Below the pieces are notes generated by a model, which was given only the letters and a program-made list of their open reading frames with translations, had not been told where the DNA came from and searched no databases. Below, one piece after another: positions 23,331 to 37,080 of a DNA stretch of 40,802 nucleotides. The stretch comes from Actinomycetota bacterium. Its GTDB lineage: Bacteria; Actinomycetota; Acidimicrobiia; IMCC26256; PALSA-610. Position 1 is the stretch's first letter. Each line of letters opens with the position of its first letter. The stretch is taken from positions 212,757 to 253,558 of the forward strand of contig PLBO01000151.1 in NCBI GenBank assembly GCA_003134555.1, read 5' to 3'. Position numbers and translations under genes: made by a program.

Positions 23331-24836
23331 TCAGCGCCTCGGCGCGTTGCGTTCGACCAAGCCGGCGTGCATCGTCAGCTTCATGCCGGTGAGCGTGCGT
23401 TCCGTGTGAGTCATGCGCCACGTCAGCATGCGCTGCGCGTAGTCGAGCACTTTCGCCGCGTAGGCCGGATCGCCCGCGACGTTGCGTATCTGCGCCGCAT
23501 CGGTGTCGAGATCGAAGAAGATCGCCGGCAGCATCGGATAACCGGAGAACTGTACGTACTTGCCGTGGTCGTCGCGCAGCACCGCGAGCGCGCACTCCTC
23601 CATCGTGATGCCGAACGCCTCTTCGATGAGCGGACTGTCGGGATCGCGGAAGTCGAACTCGAAATGTACTTCTCGTCGCCAGTCGTCGGGTGACGCGCCG
23701 CGCAGCCACGGCGTGAGCGCGCGACCGTCGCATTGCAGCGGTATGTCGGCGTCGAGCAGCTCGCAGATCGTCGGCAGCACGTCGACGTGCTCCGTGAACG
23801 CGTCGACGATGCGGCCATCGGACACGCCCGGGCCCCGTACGATCAACGGTACGTGGTACGACTGGTCGAACCAGCCGAGCTTGTGCAGCATGTAGTGATC
23901 GCCGAGGTTCTCGCCGTGGTCGCTCGTGAAGATCACCAGCGTGCGGTCGGCCTGCCCGGTTGCGTCGAGCCAGTCGAGAACGCGGGCGACCTGGTCGTCG
24001 ACCTCGGCGAGCATGCCGTAGTAGGTCGCTTGCAGCTCGCGCTGCTCTCGATCGTCGTCGGGCGACTTCAGGAACGGATGGTCGATCATCATGGCGAGCA
24101 ACGGATGCTGCGCGCCCTCTTCCGCGCGTGACGCCGCCCGCACCGGTGCCGGGACCGACCCCGGATCGAACATCGTGTCGTACGGAGCGGGCGCAAGGAA
24201 CGGAGGATGGGGTCGCAGGAACGACACGTGCGCGAACCATGGGCTCTCGCCCTGCCCGTCGGCCCATTCGAGGAACCGGTCGGTGAGGAAGGTGGTCTGC
24301 GAGTGCTTCGCGTCGTACTGGGTGCGCCCAAGCGAACCGGCGGCCGGTCGGTCGACGAACGCGCGCCAGTCGTCGGGGACTTCGAGGCCGTCGGCTCGCA
24401 TCCAGTCGAGCCACTCGAGCGGCTCGCCCTCCGGGAGATGGCACACGGGGTCGAAGCCGGGAAGGACGCCCTCGTAACGGAACAGACGGGGGTCGCCGGG
24501 CGCGACCGTTCGGGGGTCGATGCTCGTGTCGGTGTAGCCGAAGAGCGCCGGCTCGTACCCAAGCCGGCGGGCGACGAGCGCGACATTGTCGTGGCGGGCG
24601 TCGAGCGGCGTTCCGTTCGACACCGACCGGTGGTTCATCAGGTACATGCCGGTGTAGAGGGCCGCCCGGCTCGGCCCGCAGGGCGCGGCCTGGGCGAAAT
24701 GCCGCCGGAACGACACCCCGCCGGCGGCAAGGCGGTCGAGGTTGGGCGTGCGCACAACCGGGTGCGCGGCCGCGCCGAGGCAGTCGCCCCGCCACTGGTC
24801 GGCGGTGATGAACAGGACGTTTACGCCGGGTGCCAT
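23331..24836 (-). CDS. Phosphonate monoester hydrolase / sulfatase (alkaline phosphatase superfamily)
   Basis: 501 aa. NVLFITADQWRGDCLG gives the first metal ligands. The nucleophile motif is C53GPSR57, where Cys is converted to formylglycine; the flanking APCGPSRAALYTGMYLMNHR is the specific form of Rhizobium/Burkholderia phosphonate monoester hydrolases. SDHGENLGDHYMLHKLGW supplies the second metal cluster, and CDGRALTPWLRG follows. These enzymes are promiscuous for phosphonate monoesters, phosphodiesters and sulfate esters. Formylglycine formation needs a maturase that is not in the window. ATG start at 24836; it lies divergent from lon (54 bases between starts) and heads an operon with the thioesterase and LLM genes. 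Confidence 0.9.
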   Translation of the reverse strand: MAPGVNVLFITADQWRGDCLGAAAHPVVRTPNLDRLAAGGVSFRRHFAQAAPCGPSRAALYTGMYLMNHRSVSNGTPLDARHDNVALVARRLGYEPALFGYTDTSIDPRTVAPGDPRLFRYEGVLPGFDPVCHLPEGEPLEWLDWMRADGLEVPDDWRAFVDRPAAGSLGRTQYDAKHSQTTFLTDRFLEWADGQGESPWFAHVSFLRPHPPFLAPAPYDTMFDPGSVPAPVRAASRAEEGAQHPLLAMMIDHPFLKSPDDDREQRELQATYYGMLAEVDDQVARVLDWLDATGQADRTLVIFTSDHGENLGDHYMLHKLGWFDQSYHVPLIVRGPGVSDGRIVDAFTEHVDVLPTICELLDADIPLQCDGRALTPWLRGASPDDWRREVHFEFDFRDPDSPLIEEAFGITMEECALAVLRDDHGKYVQFSGYPMLPAIFFDLDTDAAQIRNVAGDPAYAAKVLDYAQRMLTWRMTHTERTLTGMKLTMHAGLVERNAPRR

Positions 24837-28889: not shown

Positions 28890-30785
28890 TCAGGTGACGT
28901 CGCCGTCGCCGTCGATGTCGACGACGGGCGCCACGAACTGCGAGTTGTAGAGCCGGTAGTAGGGACCGTCGTGGTCGAGCAGCTCGCGGTGCGAACCCTG
29001 TTCGACGATGCGGCCGTTTTCCATCACGAGGATGACGTCGGCGCCGCGGATCGTCGACAACCGGTGCGCGATGACGAAGCTGGTGCGCTCTTTGCGCAGC
29101 GCGTTCATCGCCTCTTGGATGAGGACCTCGGTGCGGGTGTCGACCGAGCTGGTCGCTTCGTCGAGGATGAGAATGGCCGGGTCGGCGAGGAACGCTCGGG
29201 CGATGGTGAGCAACTGCTTCTGGCCGGCGCTGATGTTGTCGCCTTCTTCGTTGATCATCGTGTCGTACCCGTCGGGCAGCGAGTGCACGAAACGATCCAC
29301 GTAGGTCGCGCGGGCGGCCGCGAGAATCTGCTCTTCGGTCGCGTCGGGGTTGCCGTACGCGATGTTGTCGCGGATCGTGCCGCCGAACAGCCACGTATCC
29401 TGCAGCACCATGCCGATGTTCGATCGCAGTTCGCGCCGTGGAATCGACGAGATGTCTTGCCCGTCGAGCGTGATCACACCGCCGTTCAGCTCGTAGAACC
29501 GCATGATGAGGTTGACGAGCGTGGTCTTGCCGGCTCCGGTCGGACCGACGATGGCGATGGTCTGGCCGGGCTCGGCGACGAGCGAGAGCGACTCGATGAG
29601 CGGCCGGTCGGGGTCGTAGGAGAAGGTCACGTCGCAGAATTCGACGCGGCCGCGTACGGGGGGCGGGTTGTCGCTCTCGACCGCGTCGGGACTCTGCTCC
29701 TCGGCGTCGAGGAACTCGACGACGCGCTCGAACGAGGCGATTCCCGACTGGAAGACGTTCATCATCGACGCCACTTGCGTCAGCGGCATCGAGAACTGGC
29801 GGGAATACTGGATGAACGCCTGGATATCGCCGATGGTGATGGCGCCGCTCGAGACTCGGAGACCGCCCACGACCGCGACGATCACGTACTGGATGTTCCC
29901 CATGAACATCGTGAGTGGCTGCATCAGGCTCGACATGAACTGCGCGGCGAACGACGACTCGTAGAGCTCGTCGTTGGTGTCGCGGAAGCGCCGTTCGACC
30001 TCGCGTTGGCGGCCGAACGCCTTCACGACCGCGTGACCGGTGAAGGTTTCCTCGATCTGCGAGTTGAGCAGCCCGGTGCTCCTCCATTGCGAGATGAACT
30101 TGGGACGGGAGCGACGCGCGACCGCGCGCATCCCCCAGATCGACACCGGGACGGTCGTGAGCGCGACGACCGCGAGCAGCGGCGAGATCGTGAACATCAT
30201 CACGGCGGTGCCGACGAGTAAGAGCACGGACGTGAGCATCTGGCTGAGCGTCTGCTGCAGGCTCTGCGCGACGTTGTCGATGTCATTGGTTACCCGGCTG
30301 AGCAGATCACCGCGCGACTGCTTGTCGATGTAACTGAGTGGCAACACGTTGACTTTGTCCTCGACATCGGATCGCAGCTTGAACATCAGTCGCTGGATGA
30401 CACCGGCGAGCATGTACGCCGCGACTATCGACAACGCAGACGAGGCCGTGTAGAGCACGATCGCCTGGATCAGCACGTGATGCAGCGCGCCGAAGTTCAT
30501 GTGATGGTGTATGACACCTTGAACGATGATGTCGGTGCCGTGCCCCAGCACCTTTGGCCCGAAGACGTTGAGGGTCGCGCTGGCCATGGCGACCAATACG
30601 ACGATGCCGAGCACCACCCGCATCGGCCCGAGCATGCGGACCATCCGCCGGAGCGCGTTCTTGAAGTCCTTCGAGCGTTCTCCCGGAACGCCCGCCGAGT
30701 TCCACCGGCCCGCGGCACGTGTCTCCGGCGCCGCGAGATCGAGATCTTCTTGCTCTTGTTGCTCTTGGTCGTCGATGATCGTCAT
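28890..30785 (-). CDS. ABC exporter half-transporter, catalytic subunit
   Basis: 631 aa. About 70 soluble residues (an Asp/Glu/Gln-rich tail) precede six membrane helices and an ATPase domain. It has Walker A GPTGAGKTT near 411, signature NISAGQKQLL near 516, Walker B LILDEATSSVD near 533 with the catalytic Glu, and H-loop IAHRLSTI near 571. The signature has SAGQ instead of SGGQ. With its partner (30782-32518), which lacks the catalytic Glu and H-loop His, it forms an asymmetric heterodimer like TM287/288 or BmrCD. The start overlaps the partner stop by ATGA. It is a likely multidrug or lipid exporter under TetR control. It lies tail-to-tail with the CPBP gene. Confidence 0.92.
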   Translation of the reverse strand: MTIIDDQEQQEQEDLDLAAPETRAAGRWNSAGVPGERSKDFKNALRRMVRMLGPMRVVLGIVVLVAMASATLNVFGPKVLGHGTDIIVQGVIHHHMNFGALHHVLIQAIVLYTASSALSIVAAYMLAGVIQRLMFKLRSDVEDKVNVLPLSYIDKQSRGDLLSRVTNDIDNVAQSLQQTLSQMLTSVLLLVGTAVMMFTISPLLAVVALTTVPVSIWGMRAVARRSRPKFISQWRSTGLLNSQIEETFTGHAVVKAFGRQREVERRFRDTNDELYESSFAAQFMSSLMQPLTMFMGNIQYVIVAVVGGLRVSSGAITIGDIQAFIQYSRQFSMPLTQVASMMNVFQSGIASFERVVEFLDAEEQSPDAVESDNPPPVRGRVEFCDVTFSYDPDRPLIESLSLVAEPGQTIAIVGPTGAGKTTLVNLIMRFYELNGGVITLDGQDISSIPRRELRSNIGMVLQDTWLFGGTIRDNIAYGNPDATEEQILAAARATYVDRFVHSLPDGYDTMINEEGDNISAGQKQLLTIARAFLADPAILILDEATSSVDTRTEVLIQEAMNALRKERTSFVIAHRLSTIRGADVILVMENGRIVEQGSHRELLDHDGPYYRLYNSQFVAPVVDIDGDGDVT

Positions 30786-32518
30786 GCGGCCGCGCTCTTC
30801 TCGCCGATCTGCGACTGCACGATCTCCGCGTACGTCGGATTATCTCTGATCAGCTCGTCGTGCGTACCACGGCCGATAACGACGCCGTCCTCGAGCACGA
30901 GGATGTTGTCGGCGGTCGCAATTGTCGACACCCGTTGGGCCACGATGATCACAGCGGAGTCGCGCGTATAGGGACCGAGCGCGGCGCGCAGGCGCGCGTC
31001 GGTCGAAAGATCGAGCGCCGAGAACGAGTCGTCGAACACGTAGATGTCGGGCTTGCGGACGAGCGCCCTCGCGATCGAGAGTCGCTGGCGCTGGCCCCCC
31101 GACACGTTCGTGCCGCCCTGTTCGATGCGGGCTTGCAGCCCGCCGGGCATGCTGCGGACGAACTCGCTCACCTGCGCGACGTCGAGCGCGGCCCACATCT
31201 CGTCCTCGGTGGCGTCGGGCTTGCCGTATTGCAGGTTGCTCGCCACCGTCCCCGAGAATAGATACGGCCGCTGCGGCACGAGGCCGATGGTGCTCCACAA
31301 CACGTCGGGGTCGAGGTCGCGCACGTCGACGCCGCCCACCAACACGTTGCCCTCGGTGCTGTCGAACAACCGGAGTATGAGATTGACGAGCGTCGACTTG
31401 CCCGCGCCGGTACTACCGACGATCGCGGTCGTTTGGCCCGGCGCGGTGGAGAAGGAGACACCGGTGAGCACGGGGTGCTCGGCGCCGGGATAATGGAAGC
31501 CGACGTCGCGAAACTCGAGCGCGCCCTGCTCGATGACGTCGTGCACCGGATTCACCGGCGGCACGACGCTCGGGTCGGTGTCGAGCACCTCTTGAATCCG
31601 ATCGGCCGATACCGATGCGCGCGGGATCATCGAGATCACGAAGGTGGCCATCACCACCGACATGAGGATCTGCACGAGGTACGAGAGGTACGCGACGAGC
31701 GTCCCGACCTGGATCTGGCCGGAGCTCACGCGACTCGCGCCGATCCAGAGCACCGCGACGAACGACACGTTGATGAGGAGGTTCACCGTCGGGAACATCG
31801 ACGACATGAGCCGGCCGGCGCGCAGCGATACGGCGGTCAGGTCGGCATTGGCCTTGCCGAACCGCTTCGCCTCCTGGGGCTCGCGCACGAACGCCCGTAC
31901 GACGCGGACGCCGGTGATCTGCTCGCGCAGCACGCGGTTGACCTGATCGATGCGCTCCTGCATCAGGCGGAAGGCGGGAACCATCTGCGAGACGAGCAGG
32001 CCGAGCACAACGCCCGCCACCGGCATCGCCACGACCAGGATGATCGATAGGCCGACGTCCTGGCGAAGGGCCATGAACACGCCGACGACGATCGTGATCG
32101 GTGCCGCGATGGCCATGGTGGCGGCCATCACGACGAGCATCTGCACCTGCTGCACGTCGTTGGTGATGCGCGTGATCAGCGACGGCGCACCGAACGTGCC
32201 GACTTCGCGGGCCGAGAAGTCGGTGACCTGATGGAAGAGGTTCTTGCGCAGGTCGCGCCCGAAGCTCATCGCGACCTTGCCGCCCCAGTAGACCGCGGCA
32301 ACCGAGAACGCAACCTGGACGAGCGCGAAGCCCAACATGATCGCGCCCCACGTGTAGATGTAATGCGTGTTCCCGGCGATGACGCCCTTGTCGATGATGC
32401 GCGCGTTGATCGTCGGCAGCGTCAGCGCGGCCGACGTCTGCACAGTCTGCAGCACCACGATCAACCACAGAGCCCTGCGGTACGGGCTGAGGTGTGAGCG
32501 CAGGAGTCGCTTCAGCAC
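30782..32518 (-). CDS. ABC exporter half-transporter, degenerate-site subunit
   Basis: 578 aa with six membrane helices (residues 15-300) and an ATPase domain. Walker A GSTGAGKST is near 368 and the signature VSGGQRQRLS is canonical. The Walker B end is VFDDSFSALD near 493, with Asp in place of the catalytic Glu. The H-loop is VAQRVSTI near 525, with Gln in place of His. The nucleotide site formed by these residues and the partner's SAGQ signature should bind but barely hydrolyse ATP, the standard arrangement in heterodimeric type IV exporters. GTG 32518 overlaps the TetR gene by 7 bases and has AAAGGA six bases upstream. Confidence 0.92.
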   Translation of the reverse strand: MLKRLLRSHLSPYRRALWLIVVLQTVQTSAALTLPTINARIIDKGVIAGNTHYIYTWGAIMLGFALVQVAFSVAAVYWGGKVAMSFGRDLRKNLFHQVTDFSAREVGTFGAPSLITRITNDVQQVQMLVVMAATMAIAAPITIVVGVFMALRQDVGLSIILVVAMPVAGVVLGLLVSQMVPAFRLMQERIDQVNRVLREQITGVRVVRAFVREPQEAKRFGKANADLTAVSLRAGRLMSSMFPTVNLLINVSFVAVLWIGASRVSSGQIQVGTLVAYLSYLVQILMSVVMATFVISMIPRASVSADRIQEVLDTDPSVVPPVNPVHDVIEQGALEFRDVGFHYPGAEHPVLTGVSFSTAPGQTTAIVGSTGAGKSTLVNLILRLFDSTEGNVLVGGVDVRDLDPDVLWSTIGLVPQRPYLFSGTVASNLQYGKPDATEDEMWAALDVAQVSEFVRSMPGGLQARIEQGGTNVSGGQRQRLSIARALVRKPDIYVFDDSFSALDLSTDARLRAALGPYTRDSAVIIVAQRVSTIATADNILVLEDGVVIGRGTHDELIRDNPTYAEIVQSQIGEKSAAA

Positions 32519-33105
32519 GACGGGTCCTTTCCTCCGACCCCGTGCAGGAACAGGTGCACGAGCTCGGCGGGCGACCTCGGTTCACCGGCGAGCATCGGGT
32601 GTGTCGTCGACAACGTGAGCGCGCGCAGCAACCGCGCCGCGACGATCGGCTCGACCGTGATCCGGGCGCGGCCCGCCTCGAACCGCCGAACGAGCGCGTC
32701 ACTGTCGGCCATGGGGCGCCGCGTCATCTCGTGGAACCGCGTGCCGACGCTCGACACGAGCCGCCACATGTCGATGACGCGCTGCTGCATGATCACGACC
32801 GCGGCGGCGAGTCCTTCCTCGAACGGCAGGCCTTCCGGGATGCCGTTCAAGGCCGCTTCGAGGGGCTCCGGGTCGAGCGCCGACTCGACGACGGCCGCGA
32901 TGATCTCGTCCTTGTCGGCGAAGGCGCGGAAAATCGTGCCCTCGGCGATGCCGGCCGCGTCGGCGATCTGCCGGCTGGTCACCCGGTCGCCGTGCTCGAG
33001 CAGCAACGGCAGCGTCGCCGCGACGATCATCGCCCGCCGGTCGTCGGGCGCCAGGGACGGGGCCCGCTTGGTCTTCGGTTCTGTCTCGGTCGCCGGTCCG
33101 GTCAC
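32512..33105 (-). CDS. TetR-family regulator of the ABC exporter operon
   Basis: 197 aa. The HTH is VTSRQIADAAGIAEGTIFRAFADKDEII at about 42-69, where the usual YxHF is FRAF. The remaining two-thirds is a helical ligand-binding domain. GTG at 33105 has TATGGT eight bases upstream and no RBS. The gene overlaps the first exporter gene by 7 bases, so regulator and pump are one operon. The palindrome at 33122-33139 lies just upstream of its -10-like hexamer, fitting autorepression released by the pump substrate. Confidence 0.93.
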   Translation of the reverse strand: MTGPATETEPKTKRAPSLAPDDRRAMIVAATLPLLLEHGDRVTSRQIADAAGIAEGTIFRAFADKDEIIAAVVESALDPEPLEAALNGIPEGLPFEEGLAAAVVIMQQRVIDMWRLVSSVGTRFHEMTRRPMADSDALVRRFEAGRARITVEPIVAARLLRALTLSTTHPMLAGEPRSPAELVHLFLHGVGGKDPSC

Positions 33106-33175: not shown

Positions 33176-34432
33176 TCAGGACGACAAGCTCACCGGGAGC
33201 TGGGCGAGGCCGCGCAGCACGATTCGGCCGTTCCACTCGGGCGTGTCGGTGGCGAGGTCGACGCCCGGGAAGCGCCGGACCAGGGTCGTGATCGCGACCT
33301 CGCCTTCGAGCCGGGCGAGATGCGCGCCCAGGCAGGAATGGAACCCGCCGCCGAACGACATGTGGTCGCGGGCGTCGGGCCGCCGGAGGTCGAGGTCGTC
33401 CGCCGTGGGTCCCCACTTGTCGGGATCGCGGTTGGCCGAGCCGAGCGCGGTCATGAGCATGGAGCCGGCGTCGATCGTCGTGCCACCGATCTCGTAGGGC
33501 GCGATCGTCACGCGCCGCGACATCTGCACCGGTGAGTCGTAGCGCAGCAACTCGTCGACGAACGTCGTGTCGACCGAAGTGTCCGTGGCGAGCAACTCGA
33601 GCTGGTCGCGGTGGCGCAGGAGCGCGAGCGTGCCGTTGCCGATGAGGTTGACGGTCGTCTCGTGCCCGGCGACGTACAAGAGCATCACCTGCTCGATGAG
33701 CTCGATCTCGCTCAGCCGGTCACCCTCGTCTTCAGCGGCCACGAGGGCACTGAGCAGGTCGCCGCTCGGGTGCTCGCGCTTCCACGCGATCACTTCGTTG
33801 ACGTACGCGTTGATGTTGTCGATCGCGTCGAACGAGGCGAGTATCTCGTCACGCGTCAGGATGGGGTCGAACGTCTTCACCACTGCGCCCGACCACTCCC
33901 GGAGCTGGGAGCGATCGCGACCTTCGGGGATGCCGAGCAACTCCGAGATCACGATGAACGGCAGGGGAAACGCGAGGGCCGCGATGAGGTCGACCTCCGT
34001 CCCGGCCGCGATTGCGGCGTCGAGGTGCTCGTCGACGAGCTGCTGCACGCGGGGTCGCAGTTCCTCGATCGTGCGGGGCGTGAAGACCTTCGATACCAGG
34101 CGGCGCAGCCGGTGATGGTCGGGCGGATCGAGGTTGAGCATGGTGTGCGTGCCGCCCTCGCGCCGCTCGGCGAGCATCGCCTCGATATCCGCGTCGGCGG
34201 TGACCGCGAGTGGCTTGATGTGCCGGTCCTCCACGCTGAGGCCGGGGTCGCGCAACACGCGATGTACGTCGTCGTAGCGGAACAGCGCGAACGCGCCGAT
34301 CGGGCTGAGGTGCACCGGGTCCTGCTCGCGCACGAGCCGGTACTGCGAGTACGGGTCGTCGAAGAAGCCGGGTTCGAACGGGTTGAGCATCACCGGCAGG
34401 TAGCCGGTATCGGGCGTTTCGCTCGTCGTCAC
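33176..34432 (-). CDS. Cytochrome P450 (second in window)
   Basis: 418 aa from the GTG at 34432. The conserved N-terminal block is LNPFEPGFFDDPYSQYRLVREQDPVH. The oxygen-activation motif is AGHETT, the ExxR sits in DELLRYDSPVQ, and the heme loop is SFGGGFHSCLGAHLARLE with the Cys ligand. It belongs to the soluble bacterial class that uses ferredoxin partners. It is clearly different from the P450 at 5697 (FGGGFHSC against FGHGVHHC). Substrate unknown. GTG 34432 is preferred over ATG 34390 because TACGGT lies six bases upstream. It is divergent from the TetR-DUF1330-sulfatase operon, 118 bases apart. Confidence 0.94.
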   Translation of the reverse strand: MTTSETPDTGYLPVMLNPFEPGFFDDPYSQYRLVREQDPVHLSPIGAFALFRYDDVHRVLRDPGLSVEDRHIKPLAVTADADIEAMLAERREGGTHTMLNLDPPDHHRLRRLVSKVFTPRTIEELRPRVQQLVDEHLDAAIAAGTEVDLIAALAFPLPFIVISELLGIPEGRDRSQLREWSGAVVKTFDPILTRDEILASFDAIDNINAYVNEVIAWKREHPSGDLLSALVAAEDEGDRLSEIELIEQVMLLYVAGHETTVNLIGNGTLALLRHRDQLELLATDTSVDTTFVDELLRYDSPVQMSRRVTIAPYEIGGTTIDAGSMLMTALGSANRDPDKWGPTADDLDLRRPDARDHMSFGGGFHSCLGAHLARLEGEVAITTLVRRFPGVDLATDTPEWNGRIVLRGLAQLPVSLSS

Positions 34433-34438
34433 GAGAGG

Positions 34439-34444
34439 ACCGTA
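34439..34444 (-). promoter_or_regulatory. -10-like TACGGT, leaderless start of second P450
   Basis: TACGGT on the minus strand ends six bases before the GTG at 34432. It selects this start over the internal ATG at 34390. Confidence 0.5.
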
Positions 34445-34510
34445 CGCCCTTCCGTGCCCGGAGCGCGACGTGACATCGGTCACATTCACCGCTCCGGAGT
34501 AGCCGGAAAC

Positions 34511-34533
34511 TAGTTGCATGTATCCTGTAACTA
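34511..34533. promoter_or_regulatory. Imperfect inverted repeat between P450 and TetR
   Basis: TAGTTGCA-N7-TGTAACTA: arms match at seven of eight positions. It sits in the 118-base divergent region, 17 bases before the TetR start. Candidate operator for the adjacent regulator. Confidence 0.4.
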
Positions 34534-34550
34534 ATGGCAGACTGACGGCC

Positions 34551-35099
34551 ATGACGACGGTCGACGGCCGGGTGCGACGAGGGGCGCGCAATCGAGAGGC
34601 GATCGTCGACGCGCTGCTCGCCTGCTACGAGGCCGGCGCGTTGCGGCCGAGCGTGCCCGAGGTCGCAGCCCGAGCGGGCGTGTCGGTGCGATCCGTGCAC
34701 AACCACTTCGCCGACGTCGAGGCGCTGCGCGCCGAGGTCGCGCAGCGGCAATGGCAGCGGTACGCGTCGCTCATCGGGCCGGCCGCGACCGTCGACGAGC
34801 TCGTCGGCCAACGGGCGACGTTCTACGAAGCGGTCACGCCGGTGCGCCGTGCCGCGCTGCTGTCGATCCACGACTCGCCCACGATCGCCCGCAATCTCGC
34901 GCGCCTCGACCGGTTGCTACGGCGGCAGCTCGAGGCGACGTTCCCGGCGCTCGCGAGCACGGCGCTCGACGCGCTCGAGCTCGTCACGAGCTGGGACGCG
35001 TGGAACCGCCTGCGTGCCGCGCAGGGTTGCAGCGTCGCCCGCGCCCGCCGCGTCGTCATCGACGTCGTTCACAAACTCACCGAGGAGACAGTCGCATGA
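34551..35099 (+). CDS. TetR-family regulator of the sulfatase operon
   Basis: 182 aa from the ATG at 34551. The HTH is PSVPEVAARAGVSVRSVHNHFADVEALRAEV at about 30-60. The C-terminal region is short and helical with Arg/Leu-rich stretches (ARNLARLDRLLRRQLE). An upstream in-frame ATG at 34518 lies inside the inverted repeat and is unlikely. The stop overlaps the DUF1330 gene by ATGA, so it is the first gene of a tightly coupled three-gene operon, and it is divergent from a P450 it may also control. Ligand unknown. Confidence 0.9.
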   Translation: MTTVDGRVRRGARNREAIVDALLACYEAGALRPSVPEVAARAGVSVRSVHNHFADVEALRAEVAQRQWQRYASLIGPAATVDELVGQRATFYEAVTPVRRAALLSIHDSPTIARNLARLDRLLRRQLEATFPALASTALDALELVTSWDAWNRLRAAQGCSVARARRVVIDVVHKLTEETVA

Positions 35100-35476
35100 G
35101 TGGGATCCGCCCCAACAAGGAACAGTTCCTCGCGCTCATGAACGCGCCCGACGAGGGCCCGGTCGTGATGCTCAACCTGTTGAAGTTCAAACCGCGCGAG
35201 GGCGTCTCGGAGTACAACAAGTACGGCGACGCCGCGGTGCAGATGGTCGAGGCGCGCGGCGGCAAGGTGCTGTGGATGGGCAAGGTCGACCAAACGCTGA
35301 TCGGCGACCTCGATGCCGACGCGTGGGACGCGATCGCGCTCGTGCAATACCCCAGCCGGAAGGCGTTCGTCGAGATGACGACGTCGAAGGAATACGACGC
35401 CGCGCACGAGCATCGGGAGTCCGGGTTGGAACGCACGGTGTTACTCGCGTGCACGCCGGGACGAGGTGCTCTCTGA
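35096..35476 (+). CDS. DUF1330-like dimeric alpha/beta-barrel protein
   Basis: 126 aa. EGPVVMLNLLKFKPREGVSEYNKYGDAAVQMVEARGGKVLWMGKV, here partly paraphrased, has the strand-helix pattern and the LNLLKF and Y-x-x-Y-G-x-A features of DUF1330 proteins (PF07045). WDAIALVQYPSRKAFVEM continues the ferredoxin-like fold seen in dimeric barrel enzymes such as EthD and monooxygenases. No function is established for this family. It is sandwiched between a TetR (ATGA overlap) and a sulfatase (TGATG overlap), so its dosage is tied to both. It may bind or convert the sulfatase product. Confidence 0.8.
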   Translation: MSGIRPNKEQFLALMNAPDEGPVVMLNLLKFKPREGVSEYNKYGDAAVQMVEARGGKVLWMGKVDQTLIGDLDADAWDAIALVQYPSRKAFVEMTTSKEYDAAHEHRESGLERTVLLACTPGRGAL

Positions 35477-37080
35477 TGGGACGCAAGATCCTCTTCGTCA
35501 CGACCGATCAGCAGCGCTACGACTCGCTCGGCTGCAACGGTGGCTCGATCGCGCGGACGCCGACGGTCGACGCGCTCGCCCGCGCCGGCGTGAACTACCG
35601 GCGCGCGTACAACCAGAACACGGTTTGCATGCCCGCGCGCTCGACCATGCTCACTGGCCAGTACGTGCGCACCCATGGCGTGGTCGCCAATGGCGTGCCG
35701 TTGCCCGCCGACGCGCCGAGCGTCGCCGAATACCTGCGCGACACGGCGGGTTACCACACCGCGTTGGTCGGCAAGGCGCACTTCGAGCCCGGCTTCGACC
35801 TGAAGCTCCAGTGGCCGGAGAACAGCATGGCGGCAAATGGCCTCACGGGTCCGTACCGCGGTTTCGAACATGCCGAGCTCGCCGTGCACGTGCCGGCATT
35901 CGGTAAACGCGCGCTGCAGCACTACGGCCGTTGGCTCATCGACAATCACGGCATCGAAGCCACCAAGGGATTTTCGCCGTTGCTCGCGGCGGAGCCGGGC
36001 GGCGAGACCGGCGCGCCCGAGACGCGCCTCAACCCGATCCCGCGCGAGTGGTACCACACCGACTGGGTTGCCGATCGCACGATCGCGTATCTCGACTCGC
36101 TGCCCGACGACGCCGACTGGTTCGTGTGGATGTCGTTCCCCGATCCGCACCATCCGTGGGACCCGCCCGCGAGCGAACAGCATCGCTGCAACTGGCGCGA
36201 CCTCGACTTGCCGCCGGGTCATCCCGGGAGCAAGGACGAAGTCGAGCGGGTGCTCGCGCAGAAGCCGGCGCACTGGCTCGGCGTGTGGGAAGGCACGTTC
36301 GTCAACACCGAAGGCGGGCCCGGCACATACCGCCCGCAGAACGTCACCGACGACAACATCCGCGAGATCAACGCGATGACGCACATCATGAACGAGCTGA
36401 TCGACGACGCGTGCGGGCGCGTGCTCCGCCGCGTCGAGGCGCGCGGATGGGACGCCGACACCGACGTGTTCTTCACGACCGATCACGGCGAGCTGCAGGG
36501 CGACTACGGCCTGATCTTCAAGGGGCCGTTCCACACCGACTCGTTGATGCGGCTGCCGATGGTCTGGCGGCCCGCGCCCGCCGCAGGAGTCGCCGGCGGC
36601 AAGGAGATCAGCGAGCCGGTGGGCCAGCTCGATCTCGCGCCCACCTTCTGCGAGATCGCCGGCGTGCCGCAACCCGACTGGATGCAGGGCGCCCCGCTGC
36701 CGACCGCGCCCGGCTCGGGGCGCGAACGCGTGCTGTGCGAGTGGGACTCGCAGTTCCCCGGCTACGGGATGCACCTCCGGACGATCTACCGCGACGGCTG
36801 GTTGTGCACCGCGTATGAGCCGTCGACCGTCGGCGACCCGAACGGCCTCGAGGAGTTCTTCGCCGCGACCGGCATGTTCGGCGGGGGCATCGGACCGGTC
36901 AGCTCGGTGGCGTACGAAGGTACTGAAGGCGAGTTGTACGACGTCGAGGGTGATCCGCACCAGTGGGAGAACCGCTGGGACGATCCCGAGTGCAAGGCGC
37001 TGCGCGAAGACCTCGTCGCCGACCTCTACGAGAGCCTGCCGAGAGAGCGCAAGGTCCTGAAGGTCGAGCGACCGGCGTAG
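35476..37080 (+). CDS. Type I sulfatase (formylglycine-dependent)
   Basis: 534 aa. ILFVTTDQQRYDSLGCNG gives the first metal ligands. The formylglycine motif is C51MPAR55 followed by STMLTGQY. LVGKAHFEP is the conserved Lys/His segment, and FFTTDHGELQGDYGLIFKGPFH holds the second metal cluster. YDVEGDPHQWENRWDDPE is the usual C-terminal sulfatase block. It hydrolyses a sulfate or related ester; the substrate is unknown. The ATG overlaps the DUF1330 stop by one base. Compared with the enzyme at 23331, its motif is CxPAR rather than CGPSR, so the two should differ in substrate. It lacks a signal peptide and is probably cytoplasmic. Confidence 0.92.
   Translation: MGRKILFVTTDQQRYDSLGCNGGSIARTPTVDALARAGVNYRRAYNQNTVCMPARSTMLTGQYVRTHGVVANGVPLPADAPSVAEYLRDTAGYHTALVGKAHFEPGFDLKLQWPENSMAANGLTGPYRGFEHAELAVHVPAFGKRALQHYGRWLIDNHGIEATKGFSPLLAAEPGGETGAPETRLNPIPREWYHTDWVADRTIAYLDSLPDDADWFVWMSFPDPHHPWDPPASEQHRCNWRDLDLPPGHPGSKDEVERVLAQKPAHWLGVWEGTFVNTEGGPGTYRPQNVTDDNIREINAMTHIMNELIDDACGRVLRRVEARGWDADTDVFFTTDHGELQGDYGLIFKGPFHTDSLMRLPMVWRPAPAAGVAGGKEISEPVGQLDLAPTFCEIAGVPQPDWMQGAPLPTAPGSGRERVLCEWDSQFPGYGMHLRTIYRDGWLCTAYEPSTVGDPNGLEEFFAATGMFGGGIGPVSSVAYEGTEGELYDVEGDPHQWENRWDDPECKALREDLVADLYESLPRERKVLKVERPA

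Follow-up and report, generated by a model that had tools for sequence, protein, structure and literature searches.

A conserved TetR, DUF1330 and sulfatase gene unit with a predicted operator in an actinobacterial genome

The closest described system is the betICBA operon of Sinorhizobium meliloti, in which, according to the parts of PMC6189696 that deal with it, the repressor BetI and the choline sulfatase BetC belong to one inducible operon. The locus studied here likewise joins a repressor-type gene to a class I, Cys-type sulfatase. Among solved structures, the best match to this sulfatase is the dimeric arylsulfatase SpAS1 (PDB 4UPI) with its relatives, and the listed catalytic residues align. 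Between regulator and sulfatase lies a DUF1330 gene, whose product belongs to the same subfamily as RPA0582 of Rhodopseudomonas palustris (PDB 3DCA, 3HHL), a structural-genomics entry without assigned function. We found no literature pairing DUF1330 with a sulfatase and, judging by titles, none about the function of DUF1330 or RPA0582.

Locus layout and predicted operator

The window, i.e., the whole analysed stretch of 40,802 nucleotides from an Actinomycetota bacterium, contains the following features:

33176..34432, minus strand: cytochrome P450 (GTG start; PF00067, 94.2 bits), divergent from the operon, its tie to the operon limited to the window's own family
34433..34550: shared control region of 118 bases between the P450 and TetR genes
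34470..34483: candidate CRP/GlxR-like dyad GTGACATCGGTCAC, nearer the P450, seen in alignment
34511..34533: predicted TetR operator, inverted repeat TAGTTGCA-N7-TGTAACTA, just upstream of the TetR gene
34551..35099, plus strand: TetR-family regulator, 182 aa (PF00440 TetR_N, 25.0 bits)
35096..35476, plus strand: DUF1330 protein of the RPA0582-like subfamily, 126 aa, predicted dimeric alpha-beta barrel fold (PF07045, 36.8 bits)
35476..37080, plus strand: class I sulfatase of the alkaline phosphatase superfamily, 534 aa, CMPAR motif (PF00884, 110.7 bits)

These coordinates bear out the arrangement described in an earlier note on this DNA, namely a divergent P450, a 118-base control region and three genes joined by 4-base and 1-base overlaps. 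The TetR_N and DUF1330 matches lie above the Pfam gathering scores (25.0 against 24 bits and 36.8 against 23 bits). The TetR/DUF1330 junction is ATGA (4-base overlap) and the DUF1330/sulfatase junction TGATG (1-base overlap), and neither differs among the six homologous operons read (window, L023, L024, L025, L026 and L027). The mechanically called reading frame of the P450 extends to a TTG at 34591, and the 118-base gap depends on GTG being the start. Fourteen pairwise comparisons over P450, TetR, DUF1330 and sulfatase gave dN/dS values of 0.09–0.33, i.e., purifying selection on all four. Directly after the P450 and on the same strand, the window also carries a second TetR gene at the head of two overlapping ABC exporter genes (28890-33105, minus strand); this TetR and the first exporter are present in L023 and absent in L024 and L027.

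The inverted repeat that the earlier note had pointed out is indeed present in the control region and conserved in relatives, its arms being kept while much of the remaining gap drifts in the alignment. The window contains one match to it, where shuffled sequence would give 0.01. With 0–2 mismatches over 16 positions it was found in eight genomes (those of the window, L023, L024, L027/L015, L016, L026, L049 and L060), in each case preceding either the TetR or the sulfatase gene, and at up to two mismatches it is missing from a 2 Mb Markov control sequence. Only one good site exists in the window's own genome, where the runner-up has three mismatches, so this TetR looks like a local regulator. 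What is expected of a TetR-controlled operon is a conserved palindromic operator at the regulator's own promoter, as this repeat would be, and the sequence shows that TetR, DUF1330 and sulfatase are one unit of overlapping genes, preceded by a conserved, predicted operator. In the genome of L049, a TetR relative located elsewhere (L114) has a similar repeat upstream and an adjoining partial sulfatase. Weaker operator-like sites in L045, L047, L048, L054 and L055 were dropped, as equal scores occur within coding sequence of L044, L059 and L071 and as the reversed control pattern gave 47 matches at up to three mismatches in the window's own genome. As for the dyad, it resembles the CRP/GlxR consensus, GTGA-N6-TCAC; by the alignment it is shared with L023 and L024, recurs in L016 with a single base change, and is absent from L015.

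Recurrence of the neighbourhood

A scan of public genomes with the window sulfatase returned 59 loci at 53–93% identity. Reading stop-to-stop frames with a profile of the DUF1330 subfamily, we located a DUF1330 gene at most about 1 kb from 20 homologues, in Actinomycetota and Pseudomonadota, and not nearby at the other 39, some of which are cut by contig ends. Gene calls were crude: they broke down in L054 and L055, which are AT-rich, and overlooked the DUF1330 genes of L043, L050 and L068.

The 58 genomes of the window's order were surveyed by comparing coordinates. They hold 41 sulfatase homologues (35 genomes) and 46 DUF1330 matches (33 genomes). A DUF1330 gene was located no more than 1.5 kb from 18 of the 21 close sulfatases (at least 66% identity) versus one of the 20 distant ones (at most 62%); one of the three close sulfatases without it, in G025, sits at a contig end. 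The DUF1330 matches themselves split into two groups, whose counts were compared by Fisher test: none of the 18 ordinary members (at least 59 bits) adjoins a sulfatase, versus 19 of the 28 RPA0582-like members (below 46 bits). Only the RPA0582-like subfamily takes part in the pairing. TetR relatives adjoin nine of the 21 close and five of the 20 distant sulfatases, and immediately precede four DUF1330 genes (G004, G012, G031, G032) around which no sulfatase match lies within about 4 kb. The recurrence outside close relatives, whose absence would have refuted the earlier note, is thus seen for TetR as well as for the DUF1330–sulfatase pair, the pair in two phyla.

Could this neighbourhood be a product of chance and shared descent? 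Many genes do stay together in closely related genomes. In a sulfatase tree of 57 rows (L054, L055 and L078 left out), the DUF1330 label required three changes among labelled rows, a number as low in 84 of 500 label shuffles; this clustering is not significant, and the tree therefore gives the pairing no independent support. Random placement, however, predicts 0.05 DUF1330-adjacent cases among the 41 homologues (binomial P ~5e-45, relatedness ignored), against the 18 of 21 observed for the close type, and we reject chance placement of DUF1330 beside the sulfatase. Moreover, the pair occurs in several arrangements across the two phyla, with DUF1330 co-directional upstream, divergent, downstream or, in Alphaproteobacteria, separated by a glutathione S-transferase (GST) type gene. 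Chance combined with descent is thus an exceedingly improbable account.

Six of the 12 alphaproteobacterial rows of one tree clade share the order DUF1330, GST, sulfatase, GST. At most of the loci with this layout (L043, L044, L052, L056, L080 and L081), genes for a TetR, a DsbA-like protein and an MBL-fold metallo-hydrolase stand divergent to it. The presence of GST-type genes points to a substrate that is aromatic or electrophilic. A class-wide search from the alphaproteobacterial L052 gave 15 matches in 14 of 385 genomes, and the sole case of DUF1330 in their 1.5 kb flanks was the L052 locus itself. Plasmid searches returned seven DUF1330 records and no sulfatase at 60% identity or more, the matches listed reaching at most 33%. 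One further locus (L121 627-1193, G055:C54) has a different P450 immediately before DUF1330, in the same orientation.

The P450 behaves differently from the three-gene unit. A relative of it occurs in 40 of the 58 genomes. It is divergent from the operon in all seven genomes of the window's family that have a close sulfatase (on a single contig in six of them, and in G010 deduced across a contig break), and it adjoins the close sulfatase in none of the 11 genomes of other families carrying both genes. We therefore reject it as a general part of the system: it is an optional neighbour of the operon, a local addition at most. This bears on the pathway first proposed for the locus, in which an induced sulfatase would free a steroid-like or alkyl alcohol, DUF1330 would act on an intermediate and the P450 would oxidise the product, all under TetR. 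The constant divergent P450 within the family fits such hydrolysis followed by oxidation, as does one genome (G001; L049/L115) in which TetR and DUF1330 are missing at the site and the P450 still faces the sulfatase across a repeat with two mismatches. On the other hand, adjacency fails in the other families, L026 keeps the operator with no P450 beside the operon, and these genomes are so rich in P450-like first-look candidates that chance P450 neighbours are not rare. As a whole, we regard this pathway as unlikely, its oxidative step applying at most to the window's own family.

Sulfatase, maturation and the role of DUF1330

The CMPAR motif at residues 51-55 of the sulfatase fits the nucleophile pattern C/S-x-P/A-x-R, and 55 of the 58 homologues aligned retain its Cys, Pro and Arg; in the remaining three, the alignment has no residues at these positions. 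D11, Q12, C51, R55, N72, K100, H102, H225, D336, H337 and K349 align with SpAS1. The full class I set of metal, nucleophile, sulfate-binding and acid residues, as in SpAS1 and SmCS, is thus present by the residue list in the relevant part of PMC5870055. The substrate is another matter. SpAS1, the closest solved relative, scores 136.4 bits and every NCBIfam model falls far under its cut-off (best 148.6 versus 481 bits), so the substrate cannot be read from the sequence. Choline sulfatase (TIGR03417; 112.8 versus an equivalog cut-off of 433.45 bits) and the phosphoric/sulfuric ester hydrolase PehA (NF045661; 143.3 versus 900 bits) were rejected as identities.

Another reading is that the hydrolase natively acts on phosphate or phosphonate esters instead of sulfates. 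Its superfamily shows promiscuity between sulfate and phosphate esters. Its relatives include PehA and PMH chains, and the AS/PMH branch is described as promiscuous in the pertinent section of PMC5870055. The low PehA score speaks against this reading. So does the alignment, in which the window enzyme carries K100 and H102, the sulfatase K-x-H pair, at the place where chain 4uph, presumably a phosphonate monoester hydrolase, has Y-x-D. We hold a native phosphate or phosphonate substrate to be quite improbable.

No signal peptide was seen by eye at the sulfatase start, which fits a cytoplasmic Cys-type enzyme. A Streptomyces homologue (L040) is located behind an SsuA-like ABC transporter, an arrangement compatible with uptake of an organic sulfur compound. 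The window's own genome encodes five sulfatases with C-x-P-x-R. A second sulfatase in the window (23331-24836, minus strand; PF00884, 175 bits; locus L005) is encoded some 11 kb from the first, on the opposite strand and next to a Lon protease; the motif pattern finds no C/S-x-P-x-R site at that locus.

Cys-type sulfatases raise the question of maturation. The sole PF03781 match of the window's own genome is EgtB (521 bits) and was rejected as a formylglycine-generating enzyme (FGE); EgtB-like proteins also make up most of the PF03781 matches read in the order. The survey comprised 56 match rows, 15 of them without a reading of their own; in the 21 genomes with a close sulfatase these are just second pieces of genes that were read. 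With the FGE cysteine-pair pattern, GGS-x-LCH-x-S-x-C, as a guide, we read the corresponding region in eight of the 58 genomes (G011, G013, G018, G021, G022, G023, G024 and G029); the match in G036 ends at a contig edge, where an FGE-type region is not decidable. With this census, which concerns an order rich in Cys-type sulfatases, L082 1231-2526 (minus strand) was also noted. Among PF03781 matches, canonical FGE was found in none of the 21 close-sulfatase genomes, though the sulfatase retains CxPxR, versus five of the 14 genomes with only the distant type (P 0.006, relatedness ignored and several genomes incomplete). This puts the active form of the enzyme in doubt. Two sources report that E. 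coli modifies such cysteines by an unidentified enzyme (PMC6189696, PMC5870055); the former terms this machinery elusive and gives unmodified choline sulfatase a weak activity. An order that keeps Cys-type sulfatases with few canonical FGE bears on the question of a third route of sulfatase maturation.

DUF1330 could also be imagined, not as a pathway enzyme, but as a partner that chaperones, stabilises or matures the sulfatase protein. It is a near-constant neighbour of a single sulfatase subfamily, and the FGE distribution just given points the same way. However, four genomes (G001, G042, G005 and G057) have the subfamily sulfatase with neither FGE nor an RPA0582-like DUF1330 match, G023 has both FGE and an RPA0582-like DUF1330, and E. 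coli is not among the control genomes with a DUF1330 match. A partner role thus seems rather improbable. Its boldest form, in which the RPA0582-like DUF1330 would be a dedicated partner that matures or activates Cys-type sulfatases in lineages without FGE, is a long shot, since several genomes lack both DUF1330 and FGE; if true, it would make DUF1330 a candidate for the unidentified third maturation route.

The window's DUF1330 protein matches RPA0582 (3dca) with a phmmer E of 2.9e-17, and its AlphaFold2 protomer model (pLDDT 84) superposes on 3dca with a VIA-align Z of 14.8 and an rmsd of 2.5 A over 121 residues; by this model the protomer has a dimeric alpha-beta barrel fold. As part of the reading favoured below, DUF1330 would most likely be a small enzyme that needs no cofactor, like others with a dimeric barrel.

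Taken together, we lean towards a TetR-repressed, substrate-induced operon that would remove sulfate from a small intracellular organic molecule, DUF1330 acting either on that substrate or on its product. TetR would keep the unit off until it binds a sulfate ester or the product derived from it; the sulfatase, probably cytoplasmic, would cleave the S-O bond using the residue at Cys51; the RPA0582-like DUF1330 dimer would handle either this ester or the alcohol or phenol released from it; and, in the window's own family, the P450 may oxidise the product. The initial interpretation is supported in part: the conserved TetR-DUF1330-sulfatase unit, the predicted operator and the complete class I active site speak for it, and the P450 as a general feature is not borne out. 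This desulfation reading gives the RPA0582-like DUF1330 subfamily, which has a solved structure and no function, and an uncharacterised sulfatase subfamily a testable functional setting, and the mapped predicted operator makes ligand screening simple.

Comparison with described systems

The dimeric alpha-beta barrel fold predicted for DUF1330 is that of olivetolic acid cyclase, the SnoaB oxygenase, methylmuconolactone methylisomerase and hydroxynitrile lyase (Z ~9–11); at 8–20% identity the likeness is of fold alone, catalytic residues being unmatched. SpAS1 is distant from the window sulfatase, and the excerpts describing it mention no DUF1330 partner. The betICBA operon differs in having no DUF1330 and in carrying the dehydrogenases BetB and BetA, and the window sulfatase scores below the choline-sulfatase cut-off. 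By analogy, the likeliest description of the window unit is a repressor–sulfatase operon resembling the betIC kind, to which a subfamily-specific DUF1330 has been joined.
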